From Demequina sp. TMPB413 (GTDB lineage: Bacteria; Actinomycetota; Actinomycetes; Actinomycetales; Demequinaceae), in the NCBI RefSeq assembly GCF_020447105.2, contig NZ_CP096184.1:620001-684000 (forward strand): 64,000 bases of DNA, in the 5' to 3' direction. Positions 20,256-41,082 of the stretch are shown piece after piece. Position 1 is the stretch's first letter. Every line of letters starts with the position of its first letter. The notes under the pieces are model-generated. The model was not told where the DNA came from and did not search any database. It was given only the letters and a program-made list of their open reading frames with translations. A program made the position numbers and the translations under genes.

Positions 20256-20410
20256 CGCGCGGCGAATAGTTGGTAGGTCGGTCATGGACCTATCGTCCAC
20301 CGCGGGTATGACAAGACAACAAAACGTCCGGGCAGCTGCCACGCCCCCAGAGTCACGGCGCCGCCGTGACCTCAAGCACGCCCTTAGCGCCCTTCTCCGC
20401 CAGGCTCATC
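20256..20410. repeat. Direct repeat copy 2, downstream of and into nirK
   Basis: This is the partner of the copy at 14445-14580. The non-coding part can fold: GTCAT/ATGAC and GGAC/GTCC arms (20281-20289 with 20295-20298 and 20308-20312). In copy 1 the outer pair changes from T-A to T-G yet still pairs. The copy is continuous with the intact nirK 3' end, so it marks the original location and copy 1 is the displaced fragment. Confidence 0.7.
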
Positions 20411-21852
20411 TTGTGGTTCACGATCGCGTAGTGCCCGGCCTCCGGCGGCACGAACTCCACGAAGCCGCCCTGCGCCGCGAGCAGCGGCAGCACCTGGGCG
20501 CCGGTCACGCCCTGCGTGATCCCGTCGGTCGAGGCGCCGCGATAGACGGAGTAGGAGCCCTCGTTCCACACCGTGTCGAACTGGGTGCCCACCACGTGGA
20601 ATGAGAGGTCCGCGTTGGGGCCCGCATCGAGCACCCACATGCGCACCCGCTCGCCGGCGACGGCCGTCAGCGGGTGAGCCGCGTACTGGAACGCCCGCCC
20701 GTTGAACGCGACCACGTCGGGCTGCACCGCGGCGGCCTTGGTGGGGGACGTGGTGCCGCCCTCGCTTCCCAGGTACATCTCCGACTGGATCAGCACGTAT
20801 TGGCGGTCCACCGGCTCCAGGCCGTCGGGCTCGATCACCACGGCGCCGAACATGCCGTTCGCGATGTGCTGCGTCATCGGCATGGTGCCGCAGTGATACA
20901 TCCAGATGCCCGCGCGCCCGGCCGTGAACTCATACACGAGCGATTCGCCAGGTTCGATGGTGCGCATCGGGCCGTCCGGAGCCAACTCGCCCGCGTGGAA
21001 GTCGATCGAGTGGCCCATCGTGCCCGCGTTCACCAAGGTGATGCGGAAGGTGTCGCCGACGCGTCCGTGCAGGGTGGGGCCCGGCGACGTGCCGTTGTAG
21101 GTCCAGATCGCGCGCGTCACACCGTCCGCGACCGTCTCCGTGGACTCGGTGACGGTGAAGGTGTACTCGCGGAGGGTCTCGTCGGTGAGGGGCTGGAGTT
21201 CGGCTGGCATGGGCTCGGCGTCCTTGGCGGCGGCCAGCAGGTCCACCATCGACGGTGCAGCGACTTCAGGCCCCGTCGAGCCATCACCGGACATCATGCC
21301 TGGCATATCGCGCGGCGCGGCCGCGGCGTCGTCCGTTGTCCCAGCGTCGTCCGAAGCGCCAGCGGCACCCAAAGCGACGACGTCAAGCTCCATGCCCATG
21401 GCGCGATGCCCGGCGAGCGAGCACCAGCCCTCCATGCTGGAGCCGATCACGCCGGCATCAAGCACGGCCGTGTCGCCCGGCGCGATGGAGCCGGTCTCGG
21501 TGCCGTTCGCGAGCACCAGGTCGTGGCGCTGGTCGCCGGTGTTGTCGAAGGTGATGAGCAGGCGGTCGCCCGCGGGCACCTCGATGGTGTCGGGGGTGAA
21601 GGACATGCCGTCGACGCCAACGGTGACCTCGGTGGTGTTGCCGGTGGGCTCGACGGCGGCAGCCAGCCCAGGCGCGGTGGCGGCCTCCGTGCGGGCGGGG
21701 TCGGCCAGCACCATGGCGCCGAACGTGATGACGCCCACGGCGAGCACCGCGATGAGTGCCTGCGCCCGCCTGGGGATGACGGGCGCAGGCACGATGGGGG
21801 CGCCGACGGTGGCGTCGGCTGGTGGGGGAGACGCGGGTGGCGTGAGGGTCAC
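20353..21852 (-). CDS. nirK: Copper-containing nitrite reductase (NO-forming) with N-terminal membrane anchor and extra cupredoxin domain
   Basis: A 499-residue protein from GTG 21852, with AGGAG just upstream. The order is proline-rich cytoplasmic head, one hydrophobic anchor (about 29-52), a single cupredoxin domain (about 75-165, with its own H, C, H, M ligand set including GWCSLAGHRAMGM), a Met/Asp-rich linker, then the two-domain NirK core. Type-1 copper ligands are H281, C321, H329 and M334; type-2 ligands are H286, H320 and H419. All are present, so nitrite-to-NO activity is expected outside the membrane. The fused blue-copper domain probably feeds electrons to the core. The start overlaps the membrane-protein gene stop by 4 bp. 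Confidence 0.92.
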   Translation of the reverse strand: MTLTPPASPPPADATVGAPIVPAPVIPRRAQALIAVLAVGVITFGAMVLADPARTEAATAPGLAAAVEPTGNTTEVTVGVDGMSFTPDTIEVPAGDRLLITFDNTGDQRHDLVLANGTETGSIAPGDTAVLDAGVIGSSMEGWCSLAGHRAMGMELDVVALGAAGASDDAGTTDDAAAAPRDMPGMMSGDGSTGPEVAAPSMVDLLAAAKDAEPMPAELQPLTDETLREYTFTVTESTETVADGVTRAIWTYNGTSPGPTLHGRVGDTFRITLVNAGTMGHSIDFHAGELAPDGPMRTIEPGESLVYEFTAGRAGIWMYHCGTMPMTQHIANGMFGAVVIEPDGLEPVDRQYVLIQSEMYLGSEGGTTSPTKAAAVQPDVVAFNGRAFQYAAHPLTAVAGERVRMWVLDAGPNADLSFHVVGTQFDTVWNEGSYSVYRGASTDGITQGVTGAQVLPLLAAQGGFVEFVPPEAGHYAIVNHKMSLAEKGAKGVLEVTAAP

Positions 21853-23258
21853 AGGAGGCTCCTGGGGTTGGTCTCGGGGCTTTGCGGAGCGCTGCCGCCT
21901 GGGGCGACGACGATGGGTGCAGCGAGCGGGACGGCGCCACCTGCCGCGCGCCTGGCCTTGGCTTGGCGGGCACCGGCGACGGCCATGAGGACGATGTCTG
22001 CGGCAAAGGTCGCGGCGACGGCTGCCCACCAGGCCCAGCGGGCGTCGGCGCCAATCCCGGTGGTCGCGACCAGCAACGCGATGCTGACGGTCCGCACGGT
22101 GAGGCGCGCGGTGGAGGCGGTCTCGAGCGCCGCGATGCCCACGCGCACGGTTGCGGCGCCGCCGCCCACCACCACGGGCAGCAGGTAGGTCAGGGCACCC
22201 ACAAAGATCTGGGCGGGGCCGGCGACGCCGATGACGGGGATCCAGGCCATGACGGCGTCGCGGGCGGAGGTCGGGTCCTCGGCGCGGGCGATGAGGGCAG
22301 CGATGATCAGCAGCCCGGCGCCGGTCCAGGCGATGCCGCCCACGAGCGTCCAGGCGGCGTGCTCGCGCGGGCCCTTGGCGATCATGACGCGGGCCAGCGG
22401 CAGGCCGATCCACACGCCGAGCCCCACGGCGTAGGCGGCGAGCAGCGCGCCCGTGGCGGGCATCCATCCGAGCGCGGCGGTGGTGCCTGCTCCCGCGACG
22501 GCGGCCGCGAGCCAGGGCAGGCCGCGCACGGCGGTGGCCGAGGCGTCGCCTTCCATGCGCGTGCGCAGCACCGTGGGGCCGAGTGTGACGAGGGTGCCGG
22601 CGATGGTGAGGCCCAGCCAGCCGCCCACCATGGTGATGGAGTGGGCGAGCGTGAGGCCGTCGCGCGCGTCGAGTAGCCACGCGGGGGCGCTGGGGTCCAG
22701 CAGGGCGACGGTGAGGAAGCCCGCGATGGTGCAGCCGATCACGAACATCGCGGAGGCGGCCACGTAGAAGCGGAGCAGCGGGGCGTGGCGCCCGCCGAGC
22801 GCGTGCTTGGCGGCCAGCAGGATGGCAAGGCCGTGCCACGCGACCACGGCGCCCAGCGCCGCGGCGAAGGCGATGACCAGCGCGGGGGTGCCGATCCACA
22901 TGCCCGCGATGAGTGCCACCAGGCTGGCGTTGAAGGCGAGCGAGCGGATGAGGGCGTCGCGGCCCGAGCGCTGGTCGTTGGGCGGCAGGCGCAGCAGTCC
23001 GCGCGCGAAGTACCAGCTCCACTGCAGGATCGCGTTGGTGAGCACGCCCAGCGTGACCAGGTGGATGGTGGTCCACCAGGTCTGCGGCAGGGCGTCGCGG
23101 GTGGCGATCGCGGTGACGGCGGCGGCCAGGGCGAGCAGCATCCAGATGGTGGTGAGGCGGTCGGTGCGCGGGCGGCGTGAGCGAGGGCGTCCTGTCGTGG
23201 CGCGTTCCTTGGTGGGGCGTTCCTTCGTGGGGCGCTGTTCGGTGTTCTGCGCGGCCAT
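21849..23258 (-). CDS. Polytopic membrane protein coupled to nirK
   Basis: A 469-residue protein with a basic N-terminal tail containing a duplicated PTKER unit, then about 11-12 hydrophobic segments. Several histidines lie within or next to helices (TIHLVTLGVLTNAILQWSWY, VVAWHGLAILLAAKHAL, LAHSITMVGGWLGL), which would suit haem or copper ligation as in CcoN/NnrS-like proteins. It may pass quinol electrons to NirK or act in copper supply; neither is shown by the sequence. GGAGG precedes ATG 23258. It is the first gene of the two-gene operon with nirK. Confidence 0.75.
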   Translation of the reverse strand: MAAQNTEQRPTKERPTKERATTGRPRSRRPRTDRLTTIWMLLALAAAVTAIATRDALPQTWWTTIHLVTLGVLTNAILQWSWYFARGLLRLPPNDQRSGRDALIRSLAFNASLVALIAGMWIGTPALVIAFAAALGAVVAWHGLAILLAAKHALGGRHAPLLRFYVAASAMFVIGCTIAGFLTVALLDPSAPAWLLDARDGLTLAHSITMVGGWLGLTIAGTLVTLGPTVLRTRMEGDASATAVRGLPWLAAAVAGAGTTAALGWMPATGALLAAYAVGLGVWIGLPLARVMIAKGPREHAAWTLVGGIAWTGAGLLIIAALIARAEDPTSARDAVMAWIPVIGVAGPAQIFVGALTYLLPVVVGGGAATVRVGIAALETASTARLTVRTVSIALLVATTGIGADARWAWWAAVAATFAADIVLMAVAGARQAKARRAAGGAVPLAAPIVVAPGGSAPQSPETNPRSLL

Positions 23259-23306: not shown

Positions 23307-23888
23307 ATGAGGATCGATGAGGACGCACGTCCCGGCGCTGGGCGGGTGCTCGCGGCGATGCGCGACGCGGGTGCTGGGGTGACGGCCGCCGAGCTTGGCT
23401 CGCGCCTCGGTCTGCACGTCACCACGGTGCGGTTTCACCTGGACCGGTTGGCGGCCGACGGTCTTGTTGCGGGCCATGCCATTCCTTCCAGGGGCCGCGG
23501 CCGGCCGCGCATGGTCTACCAGGCGGTTCGCGTGCCCGACGCTCGGGCGGGGATGCTCGCGGCGCTTGCCGACGCTGCTGCTGGGGATGGTGCGGTGGCG
23601 GAGCGCGCGCAACGCGCGGGGGAGCGGTGGGCGGAGGGTCTGGATGTTGAAGGTCTCGATCCAGTGGCCGCACTCGCGGCGGTGTTCACGGAACTGGGAT
23701 TCGCGCCCGCGTCGATTGAAGGCGGTCTCGCGCTCCAGGCGTGTCCGTTCCTCGAGGACGCGCGCCGCCACCCGGAGGTGGTGTGCGGGGTGCACAGGGG
23801 GCTGGCGGTGGGAATTGCGCGGCGAGCGGGCGCGTCAGTGGAACTCAGACCGTTCCAGGGCGATATTTGCAGACTTGCGATTGCCTAG
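23307..23888 (+). CDS. SufR-like helix-turn-helix regulator, probable nirK regulator
   Basis: A 193-residue protein. The N-terminal ~70 residues form a winged helix (VTAAELGSRLGLHVTTVRFHLDRLAADGLV). The C-terminus has a cysteine pattern CPF-x11-C-x2-H ... C (C146, C160, H163, C188), like that binding a [4Fe-4S] cluster in SufR-family repressors. It is divergent from the nirK operon. A paralogue with the same pattern heads the nar operon at 40.1 kb. Sensing of NO, redox state or iron-sulfur status is inferred. No Shine-Dalgarno sequence is evident. Confidence 0.78.
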   Translation: MRIDEDARPGAGRVLAAMRDAGAGVTAAELGSRLGLHVTTVRFHLDRLAADGLVAGHAIPSRGRGRPRMVYQAVRVPDARAGMLAALADAAAGDGAVAERAQRAGERWAEGLDVEGLDPVAALAAVFTELGFAPASIEGGLALQACPFLEDARRHPEVVCGVHRGLAVGIARRAGASVELRPFQGDICRLAIA

Positions 23889-24057
23889 TCGCGACAGGGG
23901 CGCTACTGCAGTACCCGTCGCCTGACGCGAGCCACACCGAGGCCGCACTGAACGGGTGGCGTTCATTCTTGTGGCAACATCAGATGACACGCACGACGTA
24001 CCTCGGTGCTCGCTACCCTGATCGAGTTCCGTCACAATACAACCTCTGGAGCAAGAC

Positions 24058-24837
24058 TTGAGCGACGCGATCGAGCCCGTTGAGGAGCTGCTGAAATCAA
24101 CTGATCTAGGGGCTCCGGTAACTGCCGAAGAGTCGGGTGCTCACGGAGAAACCGCGCTCCCTTCGTTGACTCTTGCACTGTTCAGGACAGCCGCGAAGGA
24201 GTTCGCTACCGAACTCACCCAAACTCCTCTTCCAAGCCTTTACGGTGCGACAGACGGCAAGGCCGTGGGCACCAAAGTCGAAGCAATGTTCAAGGAACAT
24301 CTGCAGGATCGCTACGACCTGGCCGTCGGCAACGCTGCCAACGGTCTCGATTTCCCCTCGCTGAATCTTGATCTGAAGGTGACATCCAAGAAGCAGCCTC
24401 AGTCGTCGTCTCCGTATCGCGCCGCCACGCAGAAGATCTATGGCCTTGGTTACAGCTTGTTGGTCATCGTCTACGTCAAGCGGGACGAAGCAACCGAGCA
24501 AGCGGCGTACCTCGACATTGAGAACGTCATCTATATCGACAAGACCCGCACCAGCGACTACACGTTAACTAAGACGATCCGCGAGATCATCGCCAACGGC
24601 GAGACCGACGCACGAGACGCGATCATCGACGATCTCGATGCGCTGCTACAAGACAAGAACATCCCTCTAGACGAGGTTAGCCGACGCCAGCTCGCTGAGC
24701 GATTGATCGATGACATCCCCGAGCAGGGTGTGCTGACCATCTCGAATGCGCTTCAATGGCGACTTCAGTACAGCCGGGCCATTAGCACTGCGACCGCAAA
24801 GACCATCGCTCCGGAGGTTGAGGACCTTCGTGCCTAA
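24058..24837 (+). CDS. Probable type II restriction endonuclease
   Basis: A 259-residue protein from TTG 24058, with GGAG seven bases upstream. A central PD-(D/E)xK-like core is suggested by LDFPSLNLDLKVTSKKQPQSS, where an acidic residue and D-x-K-type lysine sit on adjacent strands. A long C-terminal helical region follows. Base composition is lower in GC than the flanking metabolic genes, which suggests transfer. Its stop lies inside the start of the methyltransferase gene (8-base overlap), the strongest evidence for a restriction role. Recognition sequence is unknown. Confidence 0.72.
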   Translation: MSDAIEPVEELLKSTDLGAPVTAEESGAHGETALPSLTLALFRTAAKEFATELTQTPLPSLYGATDGKAVGTKVEAMFKEHLQDRYDLAVGNAANGLDFPSLNLDLKVTSKKQPQSSSPYRAATQKIYGLGYSLLVIVYVKRDEATEQAAYLDIENVIYIDKTRTSDYTLTKTIREIIANGETDARDAIIDDLDALLQDKNIPLDEVSRRQLAERLIDDIPEQGVLTISNALQWRLQYSRAISTATAKTIAPEVEDLRA

Positions 24838-26350
24838 CAACGAATTCGGTGACTTCCAGACGCCTCTTGGCCTGGCGACGCAGTGCCTCAAGGTTCTCGG
24901 GCTTCCCGAGAACGCTCGCGTATTCGAGCCCACTTGTGGCGTCGGGGCCTTTCTTGAAGCGGCAGCTAAGGTCGCCCCGGCGTCGGAGCGTTTCGGCGTC
25001 GAGATCAATGCAGAGTACGCTGCCGAGGCCTCCCTTTGGGGCAAGGTCACTACAGCTAACGTTTTCCAGTTCGCGCTGCCCGACGCGGCAGATTGGGAGA
25101 CCGACGGTCCATTGTTCGTCATTGGGAACCCACCCTGGGTCACTGCTGCGGAACTGAAGCGGATGGACTCTGAGAACGTTCCCGCGAAGGAGAACATTAA
25201 GAAGGTCAAGGGACTGGACGCACTGCTCGGCTCATCGAACTTTGACGTATGCGAGTACATCATCTTGAAGGCTCTTCGCGAGTTCTCAAGCCAGGCGTTT
25301 GTTCTCGGGATGCTGTGCAAGACGCACGTAGCGCGCAATGTGATCGATTATGCCGCGAGCATCGCGCTGCCAATAGCCGATGCTAAGGTCTATCGGATCG
25401 ATGCGATGCGCTGGTTCGATGCCGCGGTAGACGCGTGCTGGTTCACCATCGAAGTGAATCCTGCCGTCGAGCCGGACTACACGGTAGCGATCCACGATGA
25501 CGTCTTCACGCCTGATGCGGCGTCAATTGGTCGGTTCGGTGTCGTCGATTCACTTCTCGTTGCCGACGTGGACAAGTATATTGCCGTGCGAGAGGCCGAC
25601 GGCAAGTCGCCCTACGTTTGGAGATCGGGCTTGAAGCACGATGCCTCAAGCGTATTCGAGCTCGTCGCAACCCCGCAGCCAGCGACGAAGGCTGGCCAGC
25701 AGCTCGATCTCGAACCTGAGTACGTCTTCCCTCTGCTCAAGTGCACCGACATCTTCCGCGGTCGGCATCGTGAGCACACCAAGTGGGTGATCGTGCCTCA
25801 GATGGAGTTCGGGGCACCCACTAACCATCTCGCAGTGACCGCGCCAAATCTTTGGAACTACCTGGAGTCGAACGCAGCCGCAATTGACGGTCGCAAGTCA
25901 TCGATCTATCGAAACCGTCCCCGGTTCTCTGTCTTCGGTCACGGCCCTTACACATTTGCCCCGTACAAGATCGCAATCTCCGGGCTTCATAAGCAGCCAA
26001 CTTTCAGGCTGGTTACCCCGCTCAATGACCAACCGGTGGTCCTGGACGACACGTGCTACCTCTTGCCGTTCGAGGACCCAACGGAGGCAGTCGTTGTGGC
26101 ATCGGTCCTGAATAGCCCCCAATGTATCGCTCTGATTGAGTCGCTGGTCTTCTGGGATTCCAAGCGCCCCATCACCAAGAAGCTCCTCTCCAGGTTAGAC
26201 ATCAACCGGCTTCCCGTGGACGCGGAGTCGGTCGTTACGCATGCGGCGGCGCTGGCGGATGAGTATCGCCTTCCCTTTGATGCGGTCAGGGCATCCTCGT
26301 TGATCGGACGCTTTGGTGAGCCTGCTGAGACCGAGTTCGCACTCTTCTGA
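24830..26350 (+). CDS. Type II N6-adenine DNA methyltransferase
   Basis: A 506-residue methyltransferase from GTG 24830, with CCGGAGG upstream. Motif I is FEPTCGVGAFL (SAM binding) and motif IV is VIGNPPWVT, the catalytic NPPW of gamma-class m6A enzymes. The long C-terminal part would be the target-recognition domain. It protects host DNA against the partner endonuclease. The overlap implies coupled expression in R-then-M order. A separate controller protein is not present nearby. Confidence 0.88.
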   Translation: MPNNEFGDFQTPLGLATQCLKVLGLPENARVFEPTCGVGAFLEAAAKVAPASERFGVEINAEYAAEASLWGKVTTANVFQFALPDAADWETDGPLFVIGNPPWVTAAELKRMDSENVPAKENIKKVKGLDALLGSSNFDVCEYIILKALREFSSQAFVLGMLCKTHVARNVIDYAASIALPIADAKVYRIDAMRWFDAAVDACWFTIEVNPAVEPDYTVAIHDDVFTPDAASIGRFGVVDSLLVADVDKYIAVREADGKSPYVWRSGLKHDASSVFELVATPQPATKAGQQLDLEPEYVFPLLKCTDIFRGRHREHTKWVIVPQMEFGAPTNHLAVTAPNLWNYLESNAAAIDGRKSSIYRNRPRFSVFGHGPYTFAPYKIAISGLHKQPTFRLVTPLNDQPVVLDDTCYLLPFEDPTEAVVVASVLNSPQCIALIESLVFWDSKRPITKKLLSRLDINRLPVDAESVVTHAAALADEYRLPFDAVRASSLIGRFGEPAETEFALF

Positions 26351-26446
26351 CATGGGTTGGATGGAACTTCACCCTGAACTCCACGGACGAGAAGAGGCCC
26401 GGGGGTCTGATGCAAGAGTTGGTGACGACTTGACCTGACCGACGGG

Positions 26447-26496
26447 CCGCGCTGCGCAGCGCGGTTGGAGGGCAGCCGCAGCGGGAGGTATCCCGC
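26447..26496. terminator. Two successive hairpins after the restriction-modification genes
   Basis: A perfect palindrome (CCGCGCTG and CAGCGCGG arms, 26447-26464) is followed by GCGGGA-GGTA-TCCCGC (26481-26496). They lie between convergent genes. Neither has a clear T-tract, so a factor-assisted or bidirectional terminator is the best guess. Confidence 0.5.
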
Positions 26497-26526
26497 CTTC
26501 ACAATCATGAGGACGGGACTACCGAG

Positions 26527-28416
26527 CTACTCGGACCCGGGCTTCCGGTCGACTCCATAGTCGGCGAAGATCTCCGCGACCATTTCTGCGTCCGCATTCA
26601 GTTCCTGCTCGTAGAGAAAGTCGATGATCTCTGCGCCACACATTCGATTCGCGACCATGACAACGTCACGGTAGAGAGTCGCGTCGCCGAGCGGTGCTAT
26701 GAGAATGACCCGCTGCCAGAGTCCCGGCAGCGTGGGGTAGGCCAACGCGGCGCACACCGCCACGTGGTACTCGAACCCCCGAAGCGCGTCGATCACACCT
26801 TCCGGCTCGGAGTCGCTTTCAGGTTGGGGTTCGCCGTCGAAGAGCTCGGGTGACAGGAGTTGGTCCGCGAGCCAGCTCAGGGCTGGCGCGAAGAGCATGT
26901 CGTGACGCAGCGCTTTCACGCAGGTCGTCCAAGAGTGCTCTCCCGGAGCCCACGTCATCTCAGCTTCGAAAGAGTCGCGGGCTTGCTCGGCGATTTCCAG
27001 GGCACCGCGCAGAGGTTCGAAGCAACGGGCCTTGGCGCGATACTCGCCTTCGAGGCTGTTGTCCGCTTTCCATATTTCGGCGGCCTCGAGATATCTTCCC
27101 GACCAGAGCAACGCGTCGCCCAAGAGCGCCGAGGCGCTGAGATCTCCAGCCTCGACGGCAATTTCATAGCGTGCCGCCGCATCGCTGTACCGACTAGAGA
27201 GGAAAGCGTGGCCTGCAATCTGGCGTTGCCAATGGGGGTCGTCCGCCAGGGTGGAGTCAAGATCCTCTGCATACAGAGCCAACTCGTATGCACGATCATG
27301 GTCTTCCGAGGCAACGAGTTGGCGGGCGCGGTCGAGCGCGATTCGTACCACTTCCGGTGAGGCATCGCGATGCCGACGCATTACCCACTGCCGGATCTCT
27401 TCGGCCAGGCGATCCCGCCACGCGAACGCTCCGGGCATCAAACTTAGCGCCACGAGACTCACGGGCCCGACGGCGTCGGGGCTGTCGTCCACGTCTTTCG
27501 CCAGACTGATCGCGTCATCTATGGACCCGTACGCGGCTAGTGTCCGCACAGCGAAGCCGTGGAGTCCCTGATACGCCATGGTGCTCTGTCGCCAATGACC
27601 AAGGACAAGCGGAGTTGAGGCGTCGTGATAGCCAAGTGCGTCGAGTTCGTGCGCGATCGCGAGGCATATGTCGGACACCAATCGATCGGGGGCAATGCTC
27701 GCGCCGCCGCGACCAGTACCGTAGTGAAGCACGCCTCCTGCACGCCCTGGCGGCTGAAAGTGGATCTCGTCCCGAGCGATCCGCACGTCGACATGCGGCA
27801 CTTCAGTGGCGTCAGCGTCGACGAGGGCATCGAATACCCGCAGCGCCCGAAGCGCCTTCACCTTGATCTGCCCAGCTGAGTTCCCACCTACGCTCCCTTG
27901 CGCGCGCAACCTCACGCGCAAGGGGAACTGTGCGTACCCGCGCTTCAGTTCCCGTGCGGCGGCGACTTCGGCTTCAAGTTGGCTCCACGCGGCGGCCGAG
28001 AGTTGGTCGTCAGCGGTGAATGTGACCGTCATAGTCTTCTGCCCGGGCTTGTTCCTATACGGGTCGATGCGATGGGCCCAGCGGCACCAGAACGTGTCCG
28101 AGCTCGCATCCCAGAGCACTAGCAGCACAAGCTGATCCAACGCTCGCCAGTAGTTGAGAGTCTCGACCCGAATGCGGACTTGAGGTCCGGACTTAACTTC
28201 ACTCGTGGCTTTGAGTTGAACCGCGAATCCCAAACCAGTCAACTGGCCGTTTGAAGTGATTTCGACGTCAACGTCGATGCCGTAATCGTGCTCGCGACGA
28301 TCAGTCGCCATGGCTCCCGTCTCGTGCACCAGGCTGCGGAACCTGTCACGACTCGCGTCTTCAAGTACGTGTGATCGAGAGCGCTTTGGGAATGCCGGAA
28401 CATCGGCCGCGCGCAA
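26527..28416 (-). CDS. DUF4365 nuclease-like protein with TPR-like C-terminus, 5' end split off by IS21
   Basis: The residual frame is 629 residues from a TTG at 28416. Residues about 15-150 match DUF4365: PKRSRSHVLEDASRDRFRSLV, then EHDYGIDVDVEI and GFAVQLKATS. The D-x-D...Q-L-K-x-T layout is a PD-(D/E)xK nuclease core. The remainder is helical with TPR-like repeats. The insertion sequence begins 16 bases upstream of this TTG. Removing the element and one CTGT restores an in-frame ATG at 30808 preceded by GGAG, adding nine residues beginning MRLGTDNYA. The native gene therefore started on the far side of the IS. Next to a restriction-modification pair, a defence role is a reasonable guess. 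Confidence 0.72.
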   Translation of the reverse strand: MRAADVPAFPKRSRSHVLEDASRDRFRSLVHETGAMATDRREHDYGIDVDVEITSNGQLTGLGFAVQLKATSEVKSGPQVRIRVETLNYWRALDQLVLLVLWDASSDTFWCRWAHRIDPYRNKPGQKTMTVTFTADDQLSAAAWSQLEAEVAAARELKRGYAQFPLRVRLRAQGSVGGNSAGQIKVKALRALRVFDALVDADATEVPHVDVRIARDEIHFQPPGRAGGVLHYGTGRGGASIAPDRLVSDICLAIAHELDALGYHDASTPLVLGHWRQSTMAYQGLHGFAVRTLAAYGSIDDAISLAKDVDDSPDAVGPVSLVALSLMPGAFAWRDRLAEEIRQWVMRRHRDASPEVVRIALDRARQLVASEDHDRAYELALYAEDLDSTLADDPHWQRQIAGHAFLSSRYSDAAARYEIAVEAGDLSASALLGDALLWSGRYLEAAEIWKADNSLEGEYRAKARCFEPLRGALEIAEQARDSFEAEMTWAPGEHSWTTCVKALRHDMLFAPALSWLADQLLSPELFDGEPQPESDSEPEGVIDALRGFEYHVAVCAALAYPTLPGLWQRVILIAPLGDATLYRDVVMVANRMCGAEIIDFLYEQELNADAEMVAEIFADYGVDRKPGSE

Positions 28417-28431
28417 GGCGTAGTTGTCTGT

Positions 28432-28453
28432 TGACGGCGCTCAGCGAAATTCC
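28432..28453 (+). repeat. IS21 left terminal inverted repeat
   Basis: Begins TGACGGCGCTCAGCGAAATT. It differs from the right end at two positions. The target copy CTGT lies immediately to its left. Confidence 0.85.
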
Positions 28454-28494
28454 CCAGTCTTGCTCGGCGAAGTTCCCCAGGTCGCGGGGTCAGG

Positions 28495-29334
28495 TTAGCG
28501 GAAGTTTGTGCCGGTTGTGACGCGGCGTAGTTCGTCGGCTGCGGCGGCGTGGTTGCGGAGCCGGTAGGAGCCTCCGTCGAGGGTGACGACGACGGATCGG
28601 TGTAGGAGTCGGTCGAGCATCGCGGCGGCGACGGTGGTGTCGCCGAGGATCTCGCCCCAGGCGCCGACGGGCCGGTTCGTGGTGATCACGATCGACGTTT
28701 TCAGGTAACGCTGGTTGATGACCTGGAACAGTGCTGACGCGGCCTCGGCGGGCAACGGCAGGTAGCCCAGCTCGTCGATCACGAGCAGTGTGGGTCCGGC
28801 GAAGAACCGCATCATGGTGCCCCATTTGCCCTCGATCGCGGCGCGGTGGCAGCGGGCGGCGAGGTCGGCGGCGGAGGTGAAGTAGGTGCGATAACCGGCC
28901 GTCACAGCCGCATGGCCGAGGCCGGTCGCGATGTGGGTTTTCCCGACTCCGGGAGGGCCGATCAGGAGCACGTTGGTTGCGGTGTCGAGGTAGCGGCAGG
29001 TGCCAAGCTCGGTCAGGAGGTTGCTGTCGATGCCGGAGGCGGCGTCGAGGTCGAAGTCGGCAAGGGTCGCACCGGTGGGTAGGTTCGCGAAGCGGAACCG
29101 GCCGGCCAGGCGTCTGGCGTCGGTCGCGGTGACCTCGATGGCGAGCAGGCGCTCGAGGGTGTGAGTCAGCGACCAGCCCTCGGCTTGGGCTTGGTCCAGG
29201 ACGCGGGGCAGGGCGTCGGCGGCGTCGTCGAGTTTCAGTTCGGTGAGGTGGCCGCGTAGTTGCTGAAACACGCTCGCCGGCGTCGCGGCCGTCGTCGCCG
29301 TCAGGGTGGAAGCGGTGGTGAGTGGTGTGTTCAT
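28495..29334 (-). CDS. istB: IS21-family ATP-binding helper protein IstB
   Basis: A 279-residue AAA+ ATPase of normal IstB length. The Walker A motif is GPPGVGKTHIATGLG and Walker B is LLVIDELGYLP. The N-terminal helical region (LRGHLTELKLDDAADALP) is typical. It selects target DNA and activates IstA. Its ATG overlaps the istA stop by 4 bp. Confidence 0.96.
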   Translation of the reverse strand: MNTPLTTASTLTATTAATPASVFQQLRGHLTELKLDDAADALPRVLDQAQAEGWSLTHTLERLLAIEVTATDARRLAGRFRFANLPTGATLADFDLDAASGIDSNLLTELGTCRYLDTATNVLLIGPPGVGKTHIATGLGHAAVTAGYRTYFTSAADLAARCHRAAIEGKWGTMMRFFAGPTLLVIDELGYLPLPAEAASALFQVINQRYLKTSIVITTNRPVGAWGEILGDTTVAAAMLDRLLHRSVVVTLDGGSYRLRNHAAAADELRRVTTGTNFR

Positions 29335-30656
29335 TGGAGGGTGTTCCTGTTCTTCGCGGCCGTCTCGTAGGCGGCCAGGCTGATCACGGTGGTGGGTTCG
29401 GTGGCGCTAGTGAGCGCCATGGCGGCGCGGCGGGCCGCGGTGCCCGGTGGGATGCGTTCCTTCTTCCGGTGCGGGCGGCCTGGAGGCGCAGCGGCCAGGG
29501 CGATGGTCTCCAGGGCGGTGACGTGTCTGCTGTCGCGGATCGTGACCCCCAGCCCCGGCTCGGCAACCTGGTGCCGTGCCAGCACCACGCCGGAGATGGT
29601 CCCGATATCGATGGTGGCCGCACCGAGGCGTTGATGGACGATGACGCGGGCCGCAGCCAGTTCCGGCGGGACCGAGTACCGGTTCCCGCGCCAATCGATC
29701 AGCGCCTGCCGTGTCGCGGTGCGCTCCTCGGTCACCACCACCGGGAACAGCATCGGTGGCAACGGGCTCAGCCGTTCCGCAGCGAACATGACTGCGGCCG
29801 TCGTGGACCCGTCGCGTCCCTCACGGCGTCGACCGTCCTGCCCTTGGGCGAACGCGGTCAGGCGTTGCTGCGCTTGCTCAAGGGTGACATCGTCCGCAAG
29901 GTTGCGCCACCAACGCTGGGCGGCGGTGTGGTTGTTCTTCTCGACCACGCCCTTGCGGTTGCCCGACCGGGGCCGGCAAGCGACGACGCTGACCGCGTGG
30001 TGCTTGGAGAACGCGGCGAACATTGGTGTCAGATCACTCGTCCCCGCCTTCAGCACGGTGCTCATCCGGTCGAACCGCCACGTCTTCGTCACGCCGCCCA
30101 GCAGGCCCAGCAGCACCGTCATCGCGGCCAGCAGGTGGGGCAGGTCCATCGACGGGGAGATCACCGCCCGCCAAACCCCCGAGTGCGCGAGCGAACCCAC
30201 GAGGACGTAGGCGCGTTTGGTTGGGAACGCCCAGTCGGCCGGGGCGTCGGGCAACTCGACCCAGTCGAACTGCGTCTCCTCACCCGGCGGGTGGACGATG
30301 ATCGCGTTGGGCCGCTTGGTCACATGCGCGCAGGCCGTGCAGGCCGGCCGCAAACTCCGGTCCCGGATCTGGCGAGTCAAGGTCTGATACGACCCTTCGA
30401 AGCCCAGTGGCACGAGCTCGTCCAGCAGCGTCACCGCCCACAGATGCGGGTCCTCGCTCAGACGGGCGGTGACGTAGGCGATGAACGCGTCGAACAGATC
30501 CGGGGCGGCACGGTGACGCACTCCTGGGGTGCGTTGGCCAGCCAGATAGGCGCGGATTGTCTTGCGGTCGTGATCGGTGCGCCGGGCGATCTCACTGATC
30601 GTCATCCCCTGGCGTTTGAGCGCGTGGATGTCCACGTCGTCCTCCTCTGAAAGCAT
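29331..30656 (-). CDS. istA: IS21-family transposase IstA
   Basis: A 441-residue DDE transposase. The N-terminal helix-turn-helix is MTISEIARRTDHDRKTIRAYL. The rve catalytic core starts near EETQFDWVELPD, with a later GVVEKNNHTAAQRW segment bearing the glutamate. It is the upstream gene of the istA-istB pair and starts about 115 bases inside the right end of the element. Confidence 0.96.
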   Translation of the reverse strand: MLSEEDDVDIHALKRQGMTISEIARRTDHDRKTIRAYLAGQRTPGVRHRAAPDLFDAFIAYVTARLSEDPHLWAVTLLDELVPLGFEGSYQTLTRQIRDRSLRPACTACAHVTKRPNAIIVHPPGEETQFDWVELPDAPADWAFPTKRAYVLVGSLAHSGVWRAVISPSMDLPHLLAAMTVLLGLLGGVTKTWRFDRMSTVLKAGTSDLTPMFAAFSKHHAVSVVACRPRSGNRKGVVEKNNHTAAQRWWRNLADDVTLEQAQQRLTAFAQGQDGRRREGRDGSTTAAVMFAAERLSPLPPMLFPVVVTEERTATRQALIDWRGNRYSVPPELAAARVIVHQRLGAATIDIGTISGVVLARHQVAEPGLGVTIRDSRHVTALETIALAAAPPGRPHRKKERIPPGTAARRAAMALTSATEPTTVISLAAYETAAKNRNTLQ

Positions 30657-30770
30657 AGGAGCAGGGCCTTTCTCGAGCTGGTGTGTGGTCGAAGACCATC
30701 AGCATCGAGGAAGGCCCGCTTCTATGTGCGGAAGCGACCCGGAGTGGGGAATTTCAGTGAGCAGAACTGA

Positions 30771-30792
30771 GGAATTTCAGTGAGCGCCGTCA
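30771..30792 (-). repeat. IS21 right terminal inverted repeat
   Basis: Ends ...GTGAGCGCCGTCA on the plus strand, the inverse of the left end. CTGT, the second target copy, follows directly. Confidence 0.85.
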
Positions 30793-31099
30793 CTGTGCCC
30801 AGCCGCATGTATCGCCTACTCCAGAACCCGTCGTCAAGAACCATTGCCGTCACCGCCATGCTATGGCACGTCTCTGACGGCGGGCTCAGATCAGGTGTCG
30901 CCTAACTCCGCACCGCGCCCATTTTCTTGACGAGATTGTCGGCGACCTCGTTGAACTGTTTGGGTACAGAGGTGACTGCGCGCGTTCGAGTACTTGAACT
31001 GCATGGATGCAATCGAGGTGTAGGTGAGTCACGTCCTTGGGTAAAGACGTCGAAAGGCCGGGCGGCGAGTGCACACCGGTGCGCCAACACCCCCTGCGA
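30793..31099. other. Flank of IS21 holding the detached start of the DUF4365 gene
   Basis: On the minus strand 30808 is an ATG preceded by GGAG (ten-base spacing). Its first four codons, with the ACAG target copy at the insertion boundary, continue in frame into the gene on the other side of the IS. Beyond 30830 no supportable gene, repeat or hairpin is seen up to the end of moaA. Confidence 0.6.
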
Positions 31100-32095
31100 C
31101 TAACCCCCGATAGCGCTCATCGGCCGGCTCGGCTGCACAAAGCTCGGGTCGTCGATCCCATGCCCAGGGAGCTTGCGCGCCACGCATGCGATCATCGCCT
31201 CCGCCAGCCGGTCATCATCCGCGCCGTCGCGCATCAGGGTGCGCAGGTCCGACTCCTCGTGGGAGAACAGGCAGTTGCGGAACTGGCCATCGGCGGTCAA
31301 CCGCACGCGGTCGCAGCGGTCGCAGAACTTGCGCGTCACCGAGGCGATCACGCCGACGGTGGCGTCCGTCCCCTTGATGCGGAACTTCTCCGCAGGCGCG
31401 GAGCCGTCGTGACCCAGCGGCTCCAGCGTGAACCGCGTCGCAACAGCGGCAAGGATCTCCTCCGCCGTCACCATCTCCTCGCGCCGCCACGTGTGCCCGC
31501 CGTCCAGCGGCATGTGCTCGATGAACCGCATCTCAAGCCCGCGTTCCACAGCAAAGGAGACCAGGTCAGCGACCTCGTCGTCATTGACTCCGCGCATGAT
31601 GAGCGCGTTGAGCTTGATGGGGGAGAAGCCCACCACCCTGGCCGCCTCGATGCCCGCCAGCGTGTCCGCGAGTCGGTCGCGGCGCGTCAGGTCGATGAAC
31701 CGCGCCCGCTGCAGCGTGTCGATCGAGATGTTGACGCGGTCCAGCCCCGCATCACGCAGCGGCGCCGCCAACGCCGGAAGGCGCAGCGCGTTCGTGGTGA
31801 GCGACAGGTCCAGCGGCCCATCAGGGGTCTCGATGGCGGCCAGCGCACGCACCACGTCCACCACGTCGGGCCGCAGCAGCGGCTCGCCGCCCGTGAGCCG
31901 CACCTCGCGCACGCCCAGCCCCACGGCCACGCTGGCCAGGCGGACCAGCTCCTCCGTACTCAGCAGCGTGGGCCCCTTGAGCCACGGCACGCCCTCCGCC
32001 GGCATGCAGTACGTACAGCGCAGCGAGCAGCGGTCCGTCAGCGAGATCCGCAGATCCCGGTGCACGCGCCCGTAGCGGTCAACAAGTTCAGTCAT
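31100..32095 (-). CDS. moaA: GTP 3',8-cyclase MoaA (radical SAM)
   Basis: A 331-residue radical-SAM enzyme. The N-terminal CSLRCTYC binds the SAM [4Fe-4S] cluster; the C-terminal CDRCDRVRLTADGQFRNC holds the second cluster; the protein ends in SAIGG as expected. It converts GTP to 3',8-cH2GTP, the first Moco step, followed by MoaC. ATG 32095 overlaps the moaE stop by 4 bp. It is the last gene of the long minus-strand nar/moa run. Confidence 0.96.
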   Translation of the reverse strand: MTELVDRYGRVHRDLRISLTDRCSLRCTYCMPAEGVPWLKGPTLLSTEELVRLASVAVGLGVREVRLTGGEPLLRPDVVDVVRALAAIETPDGPLDLSLTTNALRLPALAAPLRDAGLDRVNISIDTLQRARFIDLTRRDRLADTLAGIEAARVVGFSPIKLNALIMRGVNDDEVADLVSFAVERGLEMRFIEHMPLDGGHTWRREEMVTAEEILAAVATRFTLEPLGHDGSAPAEKFRIKGTDATVGVIASVTRKFCDRCDRVRLTADGQFRNCLFSHEESDLRTLMRDGADDDRLAEAMIACVARKLPGHGIDDPSFVQPSRPMSAIGG

Positions 32096-32511
32096 GTGAT
32101 CCCCACCCAGGTGTGCGAACCGTCGGACAGGATTTCGCGCTTCCACACCGGAAGCTCCGCCTTGACGCGCTCCACCGCGTCCCGGCAGGCGGCAAACGCC
32201 TCCGCCCGATGCGCCGACGCCGCGGCAGCCACAATCGCGGGTTCGCCCACGCCCAGCAGCCCCACGCGATGCGTGAGCGCCAACACGGCATCATGGCGTG
32301 CCTCCACCTCGGCCACCACACGCTCAAGAGTGGCGGCGGCGTCAGGGTGAGCCGAGTACTCGAGGTGCGTCACCTCGCCCTCAACGCTCGGATCGTGATC
32401 GCGCACCAGCCCCACAAACGTCGCCACCGCGCCGTGGGTGGGGTCGGCCACGGCCGCCACGTGAGCGTCGAGAGACAAGGGCAAAGAAGACAGCGCGGCG
32501 ATGGCGGGCAT
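32092..32511 (-). CDS. moaE: Molybdopterin synthase catalytic subunit
   Basis: A 139-residue MoaE that adds dithiolene sulfurs to cPMP using MoaD thiocarboxylate. Seen are GAVATFVGLVRDHDP, LEYSAHPDAA, HRVGLLGVGEPAIVAA and VPVWKRE-type ending (LPVWKREILSDG). It overlaps mogA by one base and moaA by four. MoaD is encoded separately at 11.6 kb. Confidence 0.95.
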   Translation of the reverse strand: MPAIAALSSLPLSLDAHVAAVADPTHGAVATFVGLVRDHDPSVEGEVTHLEYSAHPDAAATLERVVAEVEARHDAVLALTHRVGLLGVGEPAIVAAAASAHRAEAFAACRDAVERVKAELPVWKREILSDGSHTWVGIT

Positions 32512-33380: not shown

Positions 33381-34160
33381 TTAGTCGCGACGGCTCGGCT
33401 CCCAGCCGCGGCGTGTAGCCCGGCTGCCGGTGGAGTGCGGCGTCTTGGTGCGGTAGACCACGTACGGCCTGACCACGTACTGCAGCGGCGCGCTCAGCAC
33501 GTGCACCAGTCGCGTGAAGGGCCACACGCTGAACAGCAGCAGGCCCGCCACCACGTGCAGCTGGAAGATGAGCGGCGCGGACGCCATGTGCTCCGGTTGC
33601 GGCTGGAACATGAGGATGGAGCGCGCCCACACGGACACGTCCTCGCGGTAGTTGTGGCCCTCGCCAAACAGCCCTGACGCGAACCACGAGGCGCTCACGC
33701 CCAGCACGATCGCGCTCGCCAGGAACACATACATGACCTTGTCGTTCGCGGTGGTGCGCTGGAACACCCGCGCGTTGCTGCGGCGCCGGTAGATCAGCAG
33801 GGCCATGCCGACGATGGTGGCGGTGCCGGCGACCAGGCTGAGGGGCATCGTCAACGAGTGATAGACGTCCTCCTTGACGCCCCACGCATCGGTCCACGAC
33901 TGGGGAATCAGCAGCCCCAAGAAGTGGCCGCCGATCACGGCGAGGGCGCCAAAGTGGAACAGCGGGCTCGCGATGCGCATGATGCGCGTCTCGTACAGCT
34001 GGCTCGAGCGCGTGGTCCAGCCAAACTTGTCGTAGCGGTAGCGCCAGATGAGACCCACCACCAGGGTCGCGGCGGTCACGTAGGGCAGGACGACCCAGAG
34101 GAGCAGGTTGGCGCTCGAGGGCGCGGATTCCTCGATGACGGTCATCGTGAGCGTGTTCAT
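33381..34160 (-). CDS. narI: Respiratory nitrate reductase gamma subunit
   Basis: A 259-residue membrane cytochrome b with five hydrophobic segments. Haem-ligand histidines are seen at about residues 69 and 79 (PLFHFGALAVIGGHFLG) and in the last helix pair (FQLHVVAGLLLF ... RLVH). It oxidises quinol and passes electrons to NarH. It overlaps narJ by 4 bp. Confidence 0.96.
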   Translation of the reverse strand: MNTLTMTVIEESAPSSANLLLWVVLPYVTAATLVVGLIWRYRYDKFGWTTRSSQLYETRIMRIASPLFHFGALAVIGGHFLGLLIPQSWTDAWGVKEDVYHSLTMPLSLVAGTATIVGMALLIYRRRSNARVFQRTTANDKVMYVFLASAIVLGVSASWFASGLFGEGHNYREDVSVWARSILMFQPQPEHMASAPLIFQLHVVAGLLLFSVWPFTRLVHVLSAPLQYVVRPYVVYRTKTPHSTGSRATRRGWEPSRRD

Positions 34161-34786
34161 CTGCGTCCTCCGATGTCGACCGACGCGGGGGCCGTGGGGA
34201 AGGGATCAAGCCCGACGGTCTCCACAGGTGGGCCGCTCTTGGCCAGGGCTGCCATGCGCTCCGCGATCTCGGGGGTCATGGCTGGCAGGGTGGCGAGCAC
34301 GGCGTCCAGCACGTGCACGTAGGGAGAGCCGAGCGCATTGAGTGCCTCGCGCAGCAGCCCAATGGCCACCCTGTGCTCCACCAGCAGCGCCTCACCCGTG
34401 AGGGTGTTGCCGATCGCGGCGAACTCGAGCACCACGGCCAGGTGGTCGGGCAGTTCCGCATCGCCCACGTCAAAGCCGCTCGCCAGGTACGCCTGCTTGA
34501 ACCGCACAATCGAGAAACCGCGGTTGCGCGTATCCCCGTCCGTCCAGAACGTCAGGTACGGGCACGCCTTGCGCTTCATGTCGAACGTGGCGACGTAGTC
34601 CTTCTGCGCGTCCAGCAGCGGCACCTCTTCGAGGTACGCCAAGAACTGGCGCAGCGCGGTGCGCACCTTGGAAGGCGACTCCTCGACCACCTGGGTGATC
34701 TCTGGCAACCGCTGGATCAAAGCGTCGTCCGGGTACCACAGCAGCCAGGAGGCGGCCAGGCGTGCGGCGGCGGTCGACTCACTCAT
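34157..34786 (-). CDS. narJ: Nitrate reductase molybdenum cofactor assembly chaperone
   Basis: A 209-residue all-helical TorD/NarJ-family chaperone (AASWLLWYPDDALIQRLPEI ... KRKACPYLTFWTDGDTRNRG). It holds apo-NarG during cofactor insertion and is not part of the final enzyme. It overlaps narH by 8 bp and narI by 4 bp. Confidence 0.95.
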   Translation of the reverse strand: MSESTAAARLAASWLLWYPDDALIQRLPEITQVVEESPSKVRTALRQFLAYLEEVPLLDAQKDYVATFDMKRKACPYLTFWTDGDTRNRGFSIVRFKQAYLASGFDVGDAELPDHLAVVLEFAAIGNTLTGEALLVEHRVAIGLLREALNALGSPYVHVLDAVLATLPAMTPEIAERMAALAKSGPPVETVGLDPFPTAPASVDIGGRR

Positions 34787-36440
34787 CGCGGGCCCTCACC
34801 TTCGGGATTCCGAGGGGCACTCCCGTGCCGTTCCAGTGGGGCAGGTTGAGATCGGGCGACAAGGGCGCCGAGGGATCGGAACGCAAATGGTCCTTGCCCT
34901 TGAGGGCGTGGAAGCTCTCTGCCGCGACCGGTTGAGGGCGCGGGCTGTTTGCCGTGGGGGCGCCGCCGGGGAACTGGCCCACGCCGCCCACTCCGTCGAG
35001 CGAGCACGCCAGATCCTCCAGTTCCTTGCCCACCTCGGCGTGCGCGGCGGGGATCACGTAGCGGTCCTCGTACTTGGCGATCGCGAGCAGCCGGTAGAGC
35101 TCGAGGATCGACTCCTCCGACAGCCCCACTCGCGCCGGCAGTTCCGGTCGCAACGCATTGCCCACGTTCTTGTCGCGCATGTACGAACGCATCACCGACA
35201 GCGTGTCGAGTGAGCGCAGTACGGGCTTGGGATCGCCTGCCGTGAACAGCTCAGCCAGGTACTCGACGGGAATGCGCAGCGAGCGCAAGGCGCCGAACAG
35301 GTTGTCGGCGTCCTCGGCGTCGTGCCCCGTCTCGCGCAGCGCGTCCACGATGGGCGAGAGCGGCGGGATGTACCAGACCATCGGCATCGTCCGGTATTCG
35401 GGGTGAAGCGGAAGCGCCACCCTGAACTCCTTCGCAAGCCGGTAGACGGGGGAGCGGCGTGCCGCCTCCATCCAGTCGTCGGGGATGCCGTCGCGCTTGG
35501 CGGCCGCCTGCACCTCGGGGTCGTGGGGGTCAAGGATGAGGTCCAGTTGCGCCTCGTAGAGGTCCTGCTCATTGGGCGTGGCCGCGGCCTCGGTGACCTT
35601 GTCGGCGTCGTACAGGAACAGGCCCAAGTACCGCAGCCGCCCTACGCACGTCTCGGAACACACCGTCGGCTGGCCTGCCTCGATGCGCGGGTAGCACATC
35701 GTGCATTTCTCGGCCTTGCCGGTCGCGTGGTTGAAGAACACCTTCTTGTAGGGGCAGCCGGTGACGCACATGCGCCAGCCCCTGCACTGGTCTTGGTCAA
35801 CCAGCACGATGCCGTCCTCTGCCCGCTTGTACATCGCGCCTGACGGGCAGGCGGCAACGCACGACGGGTTGAGGCAGTGTTCGCAAATGCGCGGCAGGTA
35901 GAACATGAACGCCTGCTCGAACTCAAAGCTGACGCGGTCCGTCACATCGGACTTGATCTTCTTGACGATCGGGTCCATGTGGCCGTGCTCAGGTGCGCCG
36001 CCAAGGTCGTCGTCCCAGTTGGCCGACCATTCGATCTTCATGGGCTTGCCCGTGATGGTCGAGCGCGGCTGGGCGACGGGGCTGTGCTCCTGCAACGGCG
36101 CGGACAGGAGGTTGTCGTAGTCGTACGTCCACGGCTCGTAGTAGTCGCTCACGTCCGGCAGGTTGGGGTTGCTGAAGATGCTCGCGAGGCGCTTGAGCCG
36201 CCCACCCGAGCGCAACTTGAGCTTGCCGCGCTTGTTGAGCACCCAGCCGCCCTTCCAGCGTTCTTGGTCCTGGTAGGTGCGCGGATAGCCCTGGCCAGGC
36301 CTGGTCTCCACGTTGTTGAACCACGCGTACTCCATGCCGTCGCGGTTGGTCCACGCCTGCTTGCACGTCACCGAGCACGTGTGGCAGCCGATGCATTTGT
36401 CGAGGTTCATCACCATGCCGACTTGGGCCATGACCTTCAT
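34779..36440 (-). CDS. narH: Respiratory nitrate reductase beta subunit
   Basis: A 553-residue iron-sulfur protein from ATG 36440. The four cysteine groups are CIGCHTCSVTC, CEHCLNPSCVAACP, CRGWRMCVTGCP and CTMCYPRIEAG...CSETC. Tryptophan replaces one cysteine in the third group, the normal [3Fe-4S] arrangement. It transfers electrons from NarI haems to NarG. The start overlaps the narG stop by 4 bp. Confidence 0.97.
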   Translation of the reverse strand: MKVMAQVGMVMNLDKCIGCHTCSVTCKQAWTNRDGMEYAWFNNVETRPGQGYPRTYQDQERWKGGWVLNKRGKLKLRSGGRLKRLASIFSNPNLPDVSDYYEPWTYDYDNLLSAPLQEHSPVAQPRSTITGKPMKIEWSANWDDDLGGAPEHGHMDPIVKKIKSDVTDRVSFEFEQAFMFYLPRICEHCLNPSCVAACPSGAMYKRAEDGIVLVDQDQCRGWRMCVTGCPYKKVFFNHATGKAEKCTMCYPRIEAGQPTVCSETCVGRLRYLGLFLYDADKVTEAAATPNEQDLYEAQLDLILDPHDPEVQAAAKRDGIPDDWMEAARRSPVYRLAKEFRVALPLHPEYRTMPMVWYIPPLSPIVDALRETGHDAEDADNLFGALRSLRIPVEYLAELFTAGDPKPVLRSLDTLSVMRSYMRDKNVGNALRPELPARVGLSEESILELYRLLAIAKYEDRYVIPAAHAEVGKELEDLACSLDGVGGVGQFPGGAPTANSPRPQPVAAESFHALKGKDHLRSDPSAPLSPDLNLPHWNGTGVPLGIPKVRARDE

Positions 36441-39400
36441 GAGTACCTCACCTCCTGCGAGCGCCTGCGTATCACGGTGACCTCGTCTCGCTGGTTGCCC
36501 GTGGGGCCCAGGTAGTTGAAGGCGAAGGAGAGCTGGCCGTAGCCGCCCACCAAGTGCGTCGGCTTGATCATGAGGCGGGTGAGCGAGTTGTGAATGCCCC
36601 CTCGCTTGCCCGACTCCTCCGCGATGGGGACATCCACCAGGCGGTCCTTGGCGTGGTACATGTACACCGTTCCTGCGGGCATGCGGTGCGACACGATCGC
36701 GCGCGCCACCACCACCCCGTTGCGGTTGTACGCCTCGATCCACTCGTTGTCCTTGACGCCAATCGTCTCGGCGTCCTCCACGCTCATCCAGATGTCGGGC
36801 CCGCCGCGCGACAGCGACAGCATGTACTGGTTGTCCTGGTAATTCGAGTGGATCGACCACTTGGAGTGGGGGGTCAGGTAGCGCACGGTCACTTCCCGGC
36901 CGACGCCGGTTTGCTGATCGCCGAAGATGCGGTGCATGTTGAGCGGCGGGCGGTACGTGGGCAGGTTCTCGCCTAGTTCCGTCATCCAGTCGTGGTCGAG
37001 GAAGAAGTGCTGACGTCCCGTGAGGGTGTGCCACGGCTTGAGCCGCTCCACGTTGATCGCAAACGCGGTGTAGCGGCGCCCGCCGTGCTCGCTGCCGGAC
37101 CACTCTGGGCTGGTGATGACGGGCACCGGCCGCGCTTGCGTGTCAGCAAACGTGATGCGGCTGCCCTCGTGATCCTCCGCGAGGTCCGCGAGCCGCTGGC
37201 CGGTGCGCTTCTCGAGGTCCCTGAAGCCCTCGACGGATACGCGCCCGTTGGTGGTGCCCGACAGCGCGAGGATGGTCTCGCACGCATGCACCGCTGTGAC
37301 CAGGGACGGACGCCCGGCCGCCGGGCCATTGGGGATGACGCCGTTCACACTCGCGAGCAGCTCCACCTCCTTGGCGGGGTTGACCGCCACGCCTTTGGTG
37401 TTGGTGCCCAGCTTCTCGACCAGCGGGCCGAGCGCCGACATCTTGTCAGCGAACTGCGAGTAGTCCCGCTCGACCAGCACAAACTTGGGCGCGGTCTTGC
37501 CGGGGATCAGGTCTGTCTCGCCCGTCTTCCAATCGCCGACGATGCCGCTGGGTAGCGCCATAGCGTCGGCCGTGTCGTGGAGCAAGGGCACGGCCACCAG
37601 GTCGGTGCGCTTGCCCAGGTGACCGATCGACAGGTCCGTGACCGAGCGCGCGAGTTCCTGGAACGTGTCGTAGTCGCTCTTGGTCTCCCACGGCGGGTTG
37701 ATGGCAGGGGTGAAGGCGTGCACGAACGGGTGCATGTCCGTGCTCGACAGGTCGTGCTTCTCATACCAGGTGGCTGCCGGGAAGACGATGTCTGAGTACA
37801 GGCCGGTGGACGTCATGCGGTAGTCCATGCTGACCAGCAGGTCGAGCTTGCCGTGGCCGGCCTCGCGCCACGTCACGTCGCGCGGGCGAGAGCCCTCTGG
37901 CGACTCCTCTGCCCTGACGGAGCTGTCCGCACCCAGCAGGTGCTTCAAGAAGAACTCGTTGCCCTTGGAAGACGAGCCGATGAGGTTGGCGCGCCACACG
38001 GTGAGCACGCGCGGCCAGTTCTGCTCCGCCTCCGGGTCCTCGACGGCGAAGTTGACGTCGCCCGACAGCAGGCGTTCCTTCATGTACTCGCCGGGGCTCT
38101 TTCCCGAGGCCACGATCGCGTCGCCCAGGTCGAGGCTGCTGCGGTCGAAGGTGGGGTAGGACGGCATCCAGCCGGAACGCGCCGACTGCGCGATCGCGTC
38201 GATCGACTTGAGCCCCTTGAACGTGCCCTCGCCGAGCGGGGACGCGAGGGCCTCCGGACCCATGCCGTCGTAGCGCCACTGGCCGGTGTTGACGTACCAG
38301 AACGCGGTGCCGATCATCTGGCGCGGTGGCCGCATCCAGTCGAGCCCGAACGCAAGGGTTGCCCAGCCGGTGACGGGTCGGCACTTTTCTTGACCCACGT
38401 AGTGCGCCCAGCCGCCGCCGTTGACGCCTTGGCAACCGGTCAGCGTGATGAGGGCGAGGAACGTGCGGTAGGTCTCGTCCGAGTGGAACCAGTGGTTGGT
38501 GCCGGCGCCCAGGATGATCATCGAGCGGCCGCCAGAGTCCTCGGCGTTTTGCGCGAACTCGCGGCCGATGCGCTCGGCCATGGCCGCTGGCACCCCGGTG
38601 ATCTCTTCTTGCCACGCGGGCGTGTACGGCGTCGGGTCGTCGTAGCCAGTGGGCCAGTCGCCCGGCAGGCCTTCGCGGCCCACTCCGTACTGGGCGAGCA
38701 TGAGGTCGAACACCGTGGTGACCAGGCGCTCGCCGTGGACGGTGTTGAGCCGCCCTGCCGGGACGCCGCGCGTGTGCACGCCGCCGCCCTCGTTGTCCTC
38801 TTGACCGAGATCGAACCGGGGCAGCAGCAGCTCTGCGACCTCGGTGTCGCTCGCCTCGAACAGCGACAGCGCAGGCTCGACGCCCTCGAGGTCGAGGTTC
38901 CACTTGCCGACGCCCTCCTCGCCAAAGCGGTGGCCGAGCGAGCCGTTCGGCACGTGGGGAGCGCCGGTGGCCGAGTCGATCAGCACGGTCTTGAACTGCG
39001 CGTTCTCGCTGGTATCTCCCAGGTCGGAGGCCGTGACGAACTTGTCAGGGACCCACGCGCCTTCCTTCTCCTTGAGGCTCACCAGGAACGGCAGGTCGCT
39101 GTACTTCTTGACGTACTCGACAAAGCGCGGCACCTGGCGCTCGATGAAGAACTCCTTGAGCACCACGTGGCCCATGGCCATGGCGAGCGCGCCGTCGGTG
39201 CCGGGGTGAGGGCTCATCCACTCGTCGGCAAACTTGGTGTTGTCCGCGTAGTCGGGCGAGACGGTGACGACCTTTTGGCCGCGGTAGCGCGCCTCCGCCA
39301 TGAAGTGCGCGTCCGGCGTGCGGGTGACCGGCACGTTGGCGCCCCACATGATGAGGTAGGAGGCGTTCCACCAGTCGGCCGATTCGGGCACGTCTGTCTG

Positions 39401-40135: not shown

Positions 40136-40142
40136 GGGGTTC

Positions 40143-40958: not shown

Positions 40959-41082
40959 GAGCCTTTTCTACCACAGTCAGCACCTGTGAGGTAATAAACA
41001 CGGAAGATATTGCGCATTGTTAAAAAATGAGTACTGTGTGGACCAAGAGAGCAACGACGCTGGCAATGAGGGAGGCACCACC
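40959..41082. promoter_or_regulatory. Divergent promoter region between nar operon and narK genes
   Basis: A locally AT-rich stretch (40985-41035) in a GC-rich region. A TTGCGC (41010-41015) and TACTGT (41032-41037) pair spaced by 16 bases could be the narK promoter. Transcription from there would exclude the TTG codon at 41017 as the narK start. No convincing FNR- or NarL-type consensus was found. Confidence 0.45.

Follow-up and report, generated by a model that had tools for sequence, protein, structure and literature searches.

An IS21-family insertion at the extreme 5′ end of a DUF4365 nuclease-like gene in Demequina sp. TMPB413

When IS21-family elements insert, their ends may combine with neighbouring DNA into fusion promoters; hybrid promoters created by two members, ISKpn7 and ISBf1, are described from other hosts (PMC9330008). 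What the same review reports for the family is hybrid promoters along with deletion of adjacent DNA, not regulated precise excision (PMC9330008). Among DUF4365 nucleases, one described example is the DUF4365-APAZ protein TmuRE, in which the predicted active-site residues Q62 and K64 were mutated (PMC10810196). Here we describe a locus of Demequina sp. TMPB413, in a 64,000-nucleotide stretch of contig NZ_CP096184.1 (the window; Table 1), at which the two subjects meet. As with ISKpn7 and ISBf1, an IS21-family element lies directly upstream of a gene. Unlike in those cases, no hybrid promoter was detected, and a start or ribosome-binding region was lost rather than a promoter gained.

Table 1. 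Features of the locus; positions are those of the window, except for the three further element copies
Feature	Position	Strand	Details
Variable island	23864..31095		Absent from closest relative; other genes at the same place in G034
Type II restriction endonuclease gene	24058..24837	+	PADLOC REase_II, E 1.3e-70
Type II DNA methyltransferase gene	24746..26350	+	PADLOC MTase_II, E 4.6e-111
DUF4365 nuclease-like gene	26527..28416	-	629 codons from TTG; Pfam DUF4365, E 2.1e-15
TTG	28414..28416	-	Sole start codon remaining ahead of the conserved domain; lacks a Shine-Dalgarno-like sequence
Target-site duplication CTGT, copy beside DUF4365 gene	28428..28431		By sequence
IS21-family insertion sequence	28432..30792	- (istA/istB strand)	2361 bp; TGA...TCA ends, inverted repeats
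istB helper ATPase gene	28495..29334	-	Pfam IstB_IS21, E 1.4e-74; NCBIfam IS21_help_AAA
istA transposase gene	29331..30656	-	Pfam Mu-transpos_C_2; NCBIfam transpos_IS21, 159.4 bits
Target-site duplication CTGT, far copy	30793..30796		By sequence
ATG in frame at empty site	30806..30808	-	GGAG 10 bases upstream
Three further ~100% copies of the element	G000:C1 275368-277728 (L003), 1502842-1505202 (L001), 1641654-1644014 (L004)		

The insertion was found to be a complete IS21-family element with inverted ends between 4-bp CTGT duplications, and its extent and the duplicated CTGT agreed with the preliminary description of the locus. Pfam and NCBIfam models identified istA and istB as tandem, overlapping genes on one strand. 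IstB scored well over the IS21_help_AAA cut-off, and IstA fell marginally under the curated transpos_IS21 cut-off of 160 bits. The terminal inverted repeats are imperfect, with 32 of the first 40 bases identical. Overlapping istA/istB genes, an AAA+ helper, inverted ends and a 4-bp target duplication are all as in other members of the family, and nothing notable sets the element apart beyond the slight shortfall of the IstA score. The range of 4-8 bp taken as typical of IS21-family target-site duplications covers 4/4 copies in the genome.

These four copies are ~100% identical to one another, and each is flanked by its own 4-bp duplication, all of them different (CTGT, GCGT, GAGT and GGCA). 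The insertion beside the DUF4365 gene is therefore a recent, ordinary transposition, and the element has probably been active recently. A 92% identical copy is present in another species of the genus, and a complete relative with 80.9% nucleotide identity resides on a Corynebacterium atrinae plasmid; the element was not found in the closest relative, G034. Elsewhere in the genome, one copy interrupts a 407-residue membrane-protein-like frame and another a YD-repeat (Rhs-like) frame.

With the element and one CTGT deleted, ATG 30808 and the 629-codon frame came to lie in one reading frame, as first described. The resulting frame of 639 codons (stop counted) begins MRLGTDNYALRAADVPAFPKR... From this geometry it had been proposed that the element splits the coding sequence and could act as a reversible switch, with precise excision restoring ATG 30808 and the frame. 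The joined frame and its GGAG are real, and the four near-identical copies suggest recent activity of the element. However, any insertion flanked by a target-site duplication restores the frame upon precise excision, and continuous frames also arose in silico at the three other copies once their flanks were joined. Frame restoration is thus generic to target duplication and carries no information on switching. Searching viral_contigs with the 32-base empty-site junction gave no match. No empty allele was seen among relatives in the genus and family either, a comparison of little reach because the DUF4365 gene itself is absent there. Moreover, the events that the review cited above describes for IS21-family elements are tandem-mediated deletions of adjacent DNA rather than precise excision (PMC9330008). 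Reversible on/off switching of the gene by the element is not supported, and we regard it as very improbable. Still less probable is IS-based phase variation, in which populations would carry both alleles and precise excision would return a costly defence nuclease to strong expression.

Where the gene natively starts bears on whether any codons were split at all. By chance alone, 4.7% of the ATGs in the window have GGAG in front of them at a spacing of 4-12 bases, so that its occurrence before ATG 30808, which the preliminary description had correctly noted, is moderate evidence for that start. The joined frame also holds, ahead of ATG 30808, two more in-frame ATGs and one GTG that the preliminary description did not mention, and its exact start is consequently not fixed. 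In the present allele an in-frame TGA within the IS end precedes TTG 28416 by 8 codons. The dependence on this TTG, which lies 16 bases from the edge of the element, was borne out: it is the only ATG, GTG or TTG before the conserved domain, the next GTG being at residue 30 and the next ATG at residue 36.

Comparison with relatives of the protein pointed to a short leader. A plausible start lies 1-7 residues before a P-x-R motif in 11 relatives (L052, L053, L054, L055 and L056 as annotated, plus L049, L050, L076, L077, L078 and L080), and in the five annotated ones the annotated start is preceded by an in-frame stop at a distance of no more than ~10 codons. In the window protein the motif follows TTG 28416 by 9 residues and ATG 30808 by 19. 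Because the relatives begin so close to P-x-R, the stretch removed by the element lies outside the conserved protein of the family, with no family-conserved residue lost. The native start may accordingly be TTG 28416 or give a similarly short leader, placing the element wholly in the 5′ leader with the coding sequence untouched. L076, the best full-length relative, itself offers only GTG or TTG starts near the motif, which argues for such a start. Against it, TTG 28416 has no Shine-Dalgarno sequence in either the present or the joined allele while ATG 30808 has its GGAG, and third positions are G or C in 8/9 codons between the two. On balance we consider a short native leader a serious possibility, somewhat short of even. 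It concerns the start codon alone and is compatible with an ordinary transposition. The normal start of the family lies near TTG 28416 and not at ATG 30808, the ATG and its GGAG favour 30808, and either may be the native start. The proposal that the element splits the first codons of the gene stands in so far as ATG 30808 is used, and is weakened by the 11 relatives. An intact gene with a different start in relatives had been named in advance as evidence against it, and these 11 in part provide that evidence.

Whichever start is native, the insertion removed the sole Shine-Dalgarno-like site (GGAG) of the gene. No sigma-70-like promoter was detected on either strand of 28300-31150, in a scan restricted to the sigma-70-like consensus, by which actinobacterial promoters may be missed. 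On its minus strand the same interval is also free of terminator-like sites, and istA and istB point toward the DUF4365 gene on the same strand. We propose that an acquired gene in a variable defence island received the element at its very start, within either the leader or the first codons; all family-conserved residues of the protein are still encoded. With 2.36 kb now separating the gene from any upstream promoter, the gene would be transcribed only if read-through from istA-istB, which run in the same direction, or from more distant upstream DNA reaches it, and translation would be forced onto a TTG lacking a Shine-Dalgarno sequence. The net outcome would most likely be a weakly expressed or silent gene. 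Because istA/istB are co-directional and no terminator-like site intervenes, weak read-through expression from the TTG appears the likeliest state. Ordinary recent transposition that has left the gene weakly expressed or unexpressed is, in our judgement, the probable account of the locus. The insertion, its duplication, the identical copies, the intact frame downstream and the loss of GGAG are shown directly; in which direction and how strongly expression has changed, and that the change is practically one-way, we infer.

The fusion promoters formed by IS21-family ends mean that expression could also be unaffected or raised. The istB-side end faces the DUF4365 gene, and an outward or fusion promoter there could activate it in the manner of ISKpn7 and ISBf1 (PMC9330008). 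Nevertheless, given the outcome of the promoter scan and a TTG without a Shine-Dalgarno sequence, activation seems improbable, and the earlier suggestions of a promoter supplied by the element and of switching by it both found no support. At the opposite extreme, loss of the GGAG and of promoter proximity might have left the gene dead, an unexpressed pseudogene in the making. We consider this rather unlikely, since the 629-codon frame is wholly intact, D48, Q67 and K69 are conserved and read-through from istAB is possible. Under the preferred reading of a recent transposition with reduced expression, this is a textbook IS insertion, and its main value is for annotation: the DUF4365 start is uncertain and expression doubtful.

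The match of the protein itself to Pfam PF14280 (DUF4365) reached 57.5 bits against a gathering cut-off of 24.3, and D48, Q67 and K69 of the PD-(D/E)XK-type site are conserved. Y45-G-x-D48, E52 and Q67-L-K69 are invariant among the seven sequences of alignment A1. Free of stops and frameshifts, the 629-codon frame looks as it would if the insertion were recent or if the gene were still being used. Of the original "DUF4365/TPR" label, the TPR part is weak: no TPR motif passed the Pfam cut-off in the window protein, for which DUF4365 was the only Pfam match. Its C-terminal part is helical, and sub-threshold TPR matches, which occurred in relatives only, make it weakly TPR-like. An AlphaFold model from a two-sequence alignment was too poor to use (mean pLDDT 37).

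Like TmuRE and the DREN-APAZ proteins of SPARDA, the window protein has a DUF4365 domain with a conserved Q-x-K, and through this common motif Q67/K69 may be equated with Q62/K64 of TmuRE. It differs in having no APAZ match and an additional ~480 residues, which in relatives weakly resemble TPRs. The PADLOC Aga model matched only at model positions 5-143 of 429 (protein residues 12-151). A family search of the neighbourhood found the restriction-modification pair, the IS and moaA but no Argonaute gene. Membership of SPARDA was rejected, as there is neither a C-terminal APAZ domain nor an adjacent short Argonaute gene.

The DUF4365 gene was found in none of the 43 other genomes of the genus and, across genus and family, in this genome only. 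Relatives at 24-33% identity occurred in two further genomes of the order sample, one of the class sample and three of the phylum sample; none was found in phages. The gene belongs to a variable island of ~7.2 kb, bordered by a regulator gene (23307-23888) on one side and by moaA (31100-32146 by Pfam) on the other. GC3 is 0.69-0.71 in the island versus 0.88-0.93 in three genes outside it (ORF 21849, moaA and the narG-like gene), and because of this difference horizontal acquisition of the island, including the DUF4365 gene, fits. The island also encodes the type II restriction-modification pair, whose endonuclease scored 286.2 bits with NCBIfam typeII_restric_endo (cut-off 290).

In G034 both flanks are present at ~91% identity, with 5.5 kb of other genes between them and without the DUF4365 gene or the IS. 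A variable defence site lies between regulator and moaA, occupied by type II restriction-modification and DUF4365 here and by Pycsar in G034, and the locus is modestly useful as a further example of such a site beside moaA. The Pycsar cyclase and effector of G034 were located at the corresponding site (L043 1208-2445). Judging from translations, the island is flanked by a nitrite-reductase-like and NnrS-like pair (20353-23258) and by a narGHJI/transporter cluster (34157-43844).
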